64,000 nt of DNA from NCBI RefSeq assembly GCF_000942395.1, contig NZ_LN812103.1, positions 873,394 through 937,393 on the forward strand, written 5' to 3'. Positions 45,779 through 59,249 of this stretch are shown here, piece after piece. Origin of the DNA: Risungbinella massiliensis (lineage in GTDB: Bacteria; Bacillota; Bacilli; Thermoactinomycetales; Thermoactinomycetaceae). The notes below the pieces were generated by a model. The model saw only the letters and a program-made list of their open reading frames with translations. It was not told where the DNA came from and searched no databases. How positions within the stretch are numbered: the stretch's first letter is position 1; every line of letters starts with the position of its first letter. The translations under genes and the position numbers were made by a program.

Positions 45779-45800
45779 AGAAAAAACTGTATTTATAAAA

Positions 45801-45968
45801 AGCATGTTGCATATTAGCCCAAAGCCAGAGGTATTCTCCTTTTGAGATGCGACTATGAGTGATAGGGAGCTGGAGCAGATCCCTCAGGACAAGCAGGATA
45901 AGCAGGGCAAGCGGAAGTGGGAAAACCGGTGGCGCGCCTACTTTTAATTTAGATTAATGCAACAAGCT
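45801..45968. mobile_element. MITE-like repeat, copy 1 (168 bp)
   Basis: The ends AGCATGTTGCAT and, inverted, AGCTTGTTGCAT match at 11 of 12 positions. The interior is closely like copy 2 at 59018-59155, including a conserved GGCGCGCC palindrome near the right end. Copy 1 has about 30 extra bases with short CAAGCAGG-type repeats near 45890-45912. The flanks both contain ATAAAA, a possible worn target duplication. There is no coding frame, so it would need a transposase in trans. Confidence 0.75.
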
Positions 45969-45990
45969 AATAAAAATAAACACAGGTCGA

Positions 45991-52690: not shown

Positions 52691-52716
52691 TTACGTATAC
52701 AGATGAGAATTTTAAC

Positions 52717-52945
52717 AAAAAAGAACCCACACCTGTTAGTGTGAGTTAAGTGGTATCATCCACAAACCATGTGAAAGATACTAATGGGAGAGGAGAAACC
52801 GGAGGAAGAGCTTATGGGGAAACGTAAGTCTTCTCCGCGGTTAGACAGATCATTTCCGATACTGTCTTTATCATTATGGTTCAGGGTTATCATTCTTATA
52901 CATCCTAAGAGAAAATATTTTGCAAGAATCAGGTACTTGGATTGA
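52717..52945 (-). ncRNA. csfG: Candidate CsfG-type sporulation small RNA
   Basis: The intergenic region next to rsmD (ylbH) has three hairpins: 52752-52782, a strong one at 52797-52842 (AACC, GGAG, AAGA, CTTA pairing with TAAG, TCTT, CTCC, GGTT) and 52843-52867. A terminator ends the array on the reverse strand: stem 52724-52747, whose one non-Watson-Crick position is a U-G wobble only in the reverse-strand RNA, then a T run. A forespore-type promoter lies at 52983-52953. The RNA holds two pyrimidine-rich copies of a CUCCCAU(A/U)AG-like motif (complements at 52781-52792 and 52811-52823), both unpaired. From memory, B. subtilis CsfG lies between ylbG and ylbH, is about 200 nt and is made under sigma-F/G. 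Identity is inference. Confidence 0.55.
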
Positions 52946-58305: not shown

Positions 58306-59022
58306 TTAATCCTGAATCTCTGCATAGAACCAATGGTCATCTGTTTTTTGCAGTTTGTGATAATGATTCATTGGGCTACTGCCATCATAACGATAAATAT
58401 AATATTCAAATAAAAAAATTCCAGCTCCTAGCTGTTCAAAACGTATTTGATTGGGACTCACATCTACCATACCGCTAGAACTTAGATGACGGTATTTTTC
58501 TGGTAAATGAACGCGAAAGCTTTGCTCTATAGATTTTTCAGGGGAATTTTTTGTGTGGATTACCAAGTCAGCTACTTTTTTGTTTTTCATTAAAATGGTG
58601 ACCACTTCTTTACGTAGTTCTTCTGTTCTATGAACTTCCCATTTTGCTAGAAAATATGGGGCAGGTGTAAGTAAATAGAGCAATATGGATAGAGCTATTG
58701 GGGCAATAAACGTAGTTTTTCCATGAGATTTATATTGACGGAAAAGCAGAAAAGGTAGTGCAATTAGATAAGGAAGTGTTAGCAAAAGGAGTAGACCTTG
58801 GATGATATCGATCAAAAAGTCAGTTTCATACCCCAATTCAAGATAAATGATAGCTAACAGTGGAATAAATAATGCAATACAATAACGAAGCAAAATGTTT
58901 GACCTGAGTTGTATCTTTTTGAATACAGAGACAAGTACATAGACTGTGAAAGCCAGATATACTGCAAATCCTAAATAGAGAAAAATAGAAATAATGATCA
59001 CACCTTTATATTTATTGAGCAT
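58306..59022 (-). CDS. Membrane protein of unknown function; start inside a mobile repeat
   Basis: The 238-residue protein has about four N-terminal helices (within 5-125) and a C-terminal outer domain (about 130-238) with repeated strand patterns. I do not recognise a family. The only in-frame ATG near the start, 59022-59020, lies within the terminal repeat of the mobile element copy at 59018-59155, and no good ribosome-binding site precedes it. The original 5' end was probably altered by the insertion, so the gene may be silent or use another start. Confidence 0.6.
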   Translation of the reverse strand: MLNKYKGVIIISIFLYLGFAVYLAFTVYVLVSVFKKIQLRSNILLRYCIALFIPLLAIIYLELGYETDFLIDIIQGLLLLLTLPYLIALPFLLFRQYKSHGKTTFIAPIALSILLYLLTPAPYFLAKWEVHRTEELRKEVVTILMKNKKVADLVIHTKNSPEKSIEQSFRVHLPEKYRHLSSSGMVDVSPNQIRFEQLGAGIFLFEYYIYRYDGSSPMNHYHKLQKTDDHWFYAEIQD

Positions 59023-59155
59023 GTTGCATAATTAGCCCTAAGCCAGAGGTTTTCCCCTTTTGAGATGCGACTATCAGCGATAGGGAGCCGGAGCAGATCA
59101 TATGCGGGAAAACCAGCGGCGCGCCTACGTTTAACTTGGATTAATGCAACAAGCT
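59018..59155. mobile_element. MITE-like repeat, copy 2 (138 bp) with 8-bp target duplication
   Basis: The ends AGCATGTTGCAT and inverted AGCTTGTTGCAT match copy 1. The perfect direct repeat ATTTATTG flanks it on both sides (59010-59017 and 59156-59163), which is the mark of transposition. Inside, GGTTTTCCC pairs with GGGAAAACC and CTATC with GATAG, so the transcript would fold strongly. The ends resemble the GGC.CTGTTGCA type of IS6/IS5-like elements, and 8-bp duplications fit IS6; this assignment is inference. Confidence 0.85.
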
Positions 59156-59194
59156 ATTTATTGAATGTTGAATATAATGTGAAATTATTCCAAA

Positions 59195-59249
59195 ATCATT
59201 GGCTCGCCTATGTTTAACTTGTGTTTAACTTGTGTTTAACCAACGAGCT
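59195..59249. repeat. Degenerate third piece of the MITE-like repeat
   Basis: GGCTCGCCTATGTTTAACTTG corresponds to GGCGCGCCTACGTTTAACTTG of copy 2. It is followed by two more TGTTTAAC units and CAACGAGCT, like the element end CAACAAGCT. It is an old right-end fragment with a tandem expansion, 40 bases from copy 2. The rest of 59156-59345 shows only the ribosome-binding site of the next gene. Confidence 0.6.

Follow-up and report, generated by a model that had tools for sequence, protein, structure and literature searches.

Bacterial MITEs such as Correia, RUP, ERIC, CIR and others have been reviewed (PMC2229807), and MITEAba12 of the Moraxellaceae is among the described systems closest to the locus reported here. 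MITEAba12 is a 113-bp non-coding element with 16-bp terminal inverted repeats (TIRs; GGCTTTGTTGCACAAA/GGCTTTGTTGCATAAA) and 9-bp target duplications, which is moved in trans by the co-resident insertion sequence (IS) ISAba12, the identity between the two elements being restricted to the TIRs (PMC6382973). In this study, we analyzed a stretch of 64,000 nucleotides from the genome of Risungbinella massiliensis (the window) and followed up a short repeat found in it. We conclude that this repeat is very probably a MITE mobilized in trans by an IS with which it has its ends in common, and that this type of IS persists in sister genera. Direct observations are the number of copies, their ends and 6-bp duplications, their bias toward intergenic sites, the agreement with the IS in ends and in duplication length, and a remnant of that IS.

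The Element in the Window

The element spans positions 59017–59156 of the window on the forward strand and consists of a 138-bp core (59018–59155) framed by two single outer bases, G at 59017 and A at 59156, which were assigned from the flank statistics of 46 copies and from the GAGSNTGTTGCATWA ends found in sister genera. The first-pass annotation had described a 138-bp element with near-identical TIRs, and both the coordinates and the sequence of this core are borne out. The 14-bp TIRs are AGCATGTTGCATAA on the left (59018–59031, forward strand) and AGCTTGTTGCATTA, read on the reverse strand, on the right (59142–59155), and the arms AGCATGTTGCAT and ATGCAACAAGCT of this copy are complementary at 11 of 12 positions. 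An inner inverted repeat (59048–59114, forward strand), formed by GGTTTTCCC (59048–59056) and GGGAAAACC (59106–59114), encloses a central block of approximately 70 bp, which is absent from most short forms of the family. There is no open reading frame (ORF) of 100 or more amino acids inside the MITE. The octamer ATTTATTG stands on both sides of the core (59010–59017 and 59156–59163), as had been reported, and contains the target duplication TTTATT, the left copy at 59011–59016 and the right copy at 59157–59162 (both forward strand).

The surroundings of this copy show several further features. The ATG (59020–59022) of an ORF encoding a membrane protein of 238 amino acids (58306–59022, reverse strand) falls within the left MITE end. 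Just upstream, the inferred empty site shows no in-frame ATG, GTG or TTG, and the start of the gene may have been altered by the insertion. Directly adjoining the element, 59192–59249 (forward strand) is probably what is left of the 3′ part of an older copy after decay; 30 nt matching the MITE at 83% identity are followed there by an 11-bp TTGTGTTTAAC-type tandem repeat and by AACGAGCT. Elsewhere in the window, a ylbH leader RNA (RF00516, 69 bits) is located at 52715–52840, upstream of rsmD/coaD.

A second copy of 168 bp is present at 45801–45968 (forward strand), flanked by the hexamer ATAAAA at 45795–45800 and 45970–45975, which agrees with the longer relative already placed after nadA, about 13 kb away. 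Its main difference from the 138-bp copy is an extra CCCTCAGGACAAGCAGGATAAGCAGGGCAAGCG-type stretch, and the other long forms (145–163 bp) carry similar, mostly shorter inserts. In the longer forms, GCAGATC is followed by a CCYCAGGACAGGCAGGACAAGCAG-type repeat whose length varies (loci L023, L028 and L051, and 45883–45915 in the window).

Copy Number, Variation and Genomic Setting

A search of the whole genome (3.42 Mb in seven contigs) with the 138-bp sequence, proposed earlier as a check, returned at least 40 matches among those listed, at identities from 100% to 74% and down to an E value of 4e-29, which makes the element multicopy far beyond chance. A hidden Markov model (HMM) built from 31 copies was run on genome stretches fetched around matches to the end motif and revealed at least 46 near-full-length copies of 124–168 bp at unrelated loci; these numbers are lower bounds, as the stretches rather than the whole genome were read. 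In addition, there are about nine internally deleted short forms of 52–84 bp, which have lost most of the central block, and several truncated copies. The median pairwise identity among 36 aligned copies is 88%, and the family is therefore not the product of a very recent burst.

The copies lie almost exclusively between genes, which flank them in all orientations: 43 of the 46 overlap no ORF of at least 90 amino acids, although such ORFs span 77% of the same stretches, and of the remaining three, two touch only short ORFs of 91–93 amino acids and one extends across the start of an ORF of 364 amino acids. Variation within the MITE is lowest at its outermost ends (0.02 substitutions per site vs. 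up to 0.15 inside). Positions 25–60 of the consensus are almost as invariant, with 0.03 substitutions per site in the block GCCAGAGGTTTTCCCCTTTTGAGATGCGACTATGAG, which may reflect the source element; the short forms lack the greater part of this stretch. The interior palindrome GGCGCGCC, which had been called conserved, occurs exactly in only 18 of the 46 copies and is thus not strictly conserved.

The low variation of the block GCCAGAGGTTTTCCCCTTTTGAGATGCGACTATGAG and the nearly exclusive intergenic position, together with an RNA fold of the 138 nt that is mildly better than that of shuffled sequences (z −2.05), would also suit a dispersed element with a function as RNA or DNA, such as a small RNA, an attenuator or a protein-binding repeat, that is kept under selection and for which transposition is merely the means of spread. 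We regard this explanation as improbable. Across 36 copies, neither the TIR stem nor the inner stem displays compensatory changes, deviations in the inner stem being single-sided or pair-breaking, and the covariation term of RNAalifold amounts to just −0.38. Moreover, short forms without the central block exist, at least one of which has its own 6-bp duplication (AATATT; contig C6, 1511091), no Rfam family matches at the MITE, and the orientation relative to neighboring genes is mixed. There is no evidence of a conserved RNA fold, and a separate function of the element is not claimed.

Length of the Target Duplication

The perfect octamer repeat around the window copy had been taken as an 8-bp target duplication. 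When the flanks of the 46 copies are compared at an offset of eight, the six central positions (1–6) agree in 31–35 copies each, whereas the outer positions 0 and 7 agree in just 9 and 19 copies, respectively. All six central bases match in 21 of 46 copies (shuffled flank pairings: mean 0.8, maximum 4), and at least five of six match in 25 (shuffled: mean 3.2, maximum 10). The base left of AGC is G in 33 of 46 copies and the base right of GCT is A in 42, a constancy which indicates that these outer bases most likely belong to the ends of the element. The duplication of the family is hence 6 bp, with a range of 5–7 bp, and the apparent 8 bp of the window copy are TTTATT plus one element-end base per side, matching by chance; judged from one perfect flank repeat alone, duplication length can be misread. 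The target sites resemble TAWWTA. About half of the copies have no perfect 6-bp flank match, which is what old insertions would be expected to show, albeit unproven. That copies throughout the genome lack target duplications is excluded by the 21 exact matches against a shuffled mean of 0.8.

These statistics also bear on the proposal that the MITE was moved by a transposase of the IS6/IS26 type with a true 8-bp duplication. IS6 elements generate 8-bp duplications and have 5 nt between the tip of their ends and TGTTGCA, a spacing that the MITE has as well, the window copy has a perfect 8-bp flank repeat, and the genome contains matches to PF13610. Nevertheless, the flanks of the family fall off at positions 0 and 7, no PF13610 or rve locus of the genome bears the ends at full match, and the IS that does have these ends is of the DUF772/DDE_Tnp_1 type and makes 6-bp duplications, so that we consider an IS6-type origin very unlikely. 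Palindromes of the REP/BIME type moved by a Y1 (RAYT) transposase would likewise be numerous, intergenic and palindromic, but the family has TIRs at either end and target duplications of 6 bp, both marks of DDE transposition, which leave this origin hardly credible.

A Candidate Parent Insertion Sequence in Sister Genera

Two genomes of sister genera (G005 and G010) contain an IS with GAGGTTGTTGCATWA ends and a DUF772 + DDE_Tnp_1 transposase of approximately 300–350 amino acids. In both, copies of the end motif mostly lie no more than a few hundred bases from a contig end, which is expected where repeated IS copies break the assembly. At the contig ends of G005, two constant IS ends can be recognized, and left and right ends can be paired through identical 6-bp flanks, namely TGTTAT (L135 with L130), TAGATA (L137 with L131) and TATATA (L132 or L134 with L133). 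The reading frames beside the IS ends start with MSLARLSPRNHPLYQ... and finish with ...KAPWNR*, and the transposase fragments of G010 as well as a longer copy in that genome match both domains. The candidate transposase scores above the gathering cut-off for PF05598 (40 bits; cut-off 23) and PF01609 (54 bits; cut-off 23), while it resembles the NCBIfam models for IS982 (73, the best; cut-off 130), IS1182 (63; cut-off 270) and IS5_2 (62 bits; cut-off 140) at scores below all curated cut-offs. A distant relative with 44% identity is encoded on a plasmid of a Clostridiaceae bacterium, between the ends TAGGTTGTTGAATAA and TAGCTTGTTGAATAA and within a span of 1163 bp. The placement of the partner transposase in an IS5/IS1182/IS982-like DDE group is thus broadly supported by sequence similarity. 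Of the earlier suggestion of an IS6/IS5-like transposase, the IS5-like part stands in this broad sense (DUF772 + DDE_Tnp_1, below family cut-offs), and the IS6 part does not, given that no IS6/IS240-domain locus of this genome carries the ends.

In the mechanism that we propose, the MITE, a non-coding DNA transposon that is not autonomous, would have been moved in trans by the transposase of the IS. The transposase would recognize ends of approximately 15 bp, [G/T]AGC[A/T]TGTTGCATWA, and would insert the element at AT-rich sites such as (c)TAWWTA(g), leaving a 6-bp duplication. The MITE's partner is likely to be the IS type that has GAGGTTGTTGCATWA ends, makes 6-bp duplications, encodes a DUF772 + DDE_Tnp_1 transposase and survives in the sister genera. 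As no intact transposase of this kind was found in the genome that harbors the MITE, we infer from end sequence and duplication length that the transposase of the GAGGTTGTTGCATWA-end IS moved this MITE. Against the assignment it must be said that the likeness of MITE and IS is confined to the ends, about 15–20 bp, and that the MITE itself has unlike bases at its two tips (G on the left; T, read on the other strand, on the right).

A Remnant of the Probable Parent in the Genome of the MITE

A search of the own genome with the transposase gave no match. A decayed right IS end is present on contig C6, finishing at about position 387051 inside the reading frame of a serine recombinase; it preserves ...CDTKKAPWNR*, has TTAGCGGTTCCAAGGCGC on the other strand and ends in GAGCTTGTTGCATTA. 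This remnant implies that an IS of the GAGGTTGTTGCATWA-end type was once present here. As partners we further considered an IS982-type IS of this genome (at 389 kb of contig C6 and also at the start of that contig), whose ACCCGTGGTGCTAGT ends differ, and the transposases with rve/IS240 domains, none of which carries the MITE ends. Because nothing of the IS beyond this decayed right end was found here, the MITE family is probably immobile now and stranded, and transposition appears to have stopped.

Distribution and Related MITEs

No copy of the MITE was found in 60 related genomes, 22 of them from other genera of the same family; this pattern of many copies in its own genome and none in these relatives excludes that the MITE is a single-copy orthologue shared with distant ones. 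Contigs of GTDB genomes and viral contigs gave no exact match to the core, and plasmids and phages no blastn match to the MITE, near-identical genomes possibly being left out in both cases. The end motif is strongly enriched in one sister genome (G022), with 19 exact matches, and bounds a different interior of approximately 110–190 bp there; written as GAGSNTGTTGCANWA, it is present in 12 of 20 sister genomes. The MITEs of the sister genera have GAGSNTGTTGCATWA ends, unrelated interiors and lengths of 128–257 bp, and their flank repeats are mostly 4–7 bp long, e.g., TATTTA and TTTAAT, the duplications mostly measuring 5–7 bp.

The loci L092–L109 of G022 represent a separate MITE family (interior ...CGAATCGTTTTTGTGTAGGATCGACTTTTGCGCC...) that has its ends in common with the window MITE; at L092, two copies, approximately 1.85 kb from each other, enclose one gene for an alpha/beta-hydrolase-like protein and another for a small, secreted-looking protein. 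In the own genome, a 63-bp element on contig C7 (749963–750025; L045) has the same TIRs and a different interior (ATTCGCGAACCAAGGTG...), which resembles the parent IS at its right end; this element may represent a further MITE family derived from that parent. In our judgment, it is as likely as not that one unnamed IS group (DUF772/DDE_Tnp_1, GAGGTTGTTGCATWA ends, TAWWTA sites duplicated over 6 bp) gave rise to MITE families with unrelated interiors several times over, independently, in different genera of one bacterial family. Among the papers covered by a literature search, none joins such MITEs with Thermoactinomyces, and a search on the end sequences returned MITEAba12 as the sole mobile element among the matches listed; the MITE family is apparently undescribed so far.

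Comparison With Known Systems

On every feature tested the element is a MITE, as the first-pass annotation had proposed: it is repeated many times, ends in TIRs, is flanked by target duplications, lacks coding capacity and has an autonomous relative in sister genera. It constitutes a clean MITE family with a traceable parent IS, present in sister genera and decayed in this genome, and thereby offers an example from nature of a parasite's parasite that has survived its helper element. The GAGGTTGTTGCATWA-end IS of G005 and G010 has the same ends as the window MITE, AT-rich targets and 6-bp duplications (the latter shown in G005), but differs from it by a transposase gene and an unrelated interior. 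Transposases annotated as ISNCY on plasmids of Geobacillus and Parageobacillus (WP_041269328, WP_011886641) share approximately 35% identity with the C-terminal part of the candidate transposase, and the ends of the Parageobacillus element contain GTGTTGCAAAAC; however, the ends of these elements are longer and start with GATC. With Correia, RUP, ERIC and CIR, compared by description, the window MITE shares the character of a small non-autonomous intergenic repeat, while hosts and partners are others (PMC2229807). A close parallel is MITEAba12, in which the motif TGTTGCAYAA likewise lies 5 nt from the tip (PMC6382973). The two differ in duplication length (9 bp vs. 6 bp in the window MITE), in the tip (GGCTT vs. 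GAGC/TAGC) and in the host (Moraxellaceae vs. Bacillota), and while the partner IS of MITEAba12 is co-resident, the genome of the window MITE keeps only a remnant. By analogy, the window MITE would work in the same way as the pair of MITEAba12 and ISAba12.
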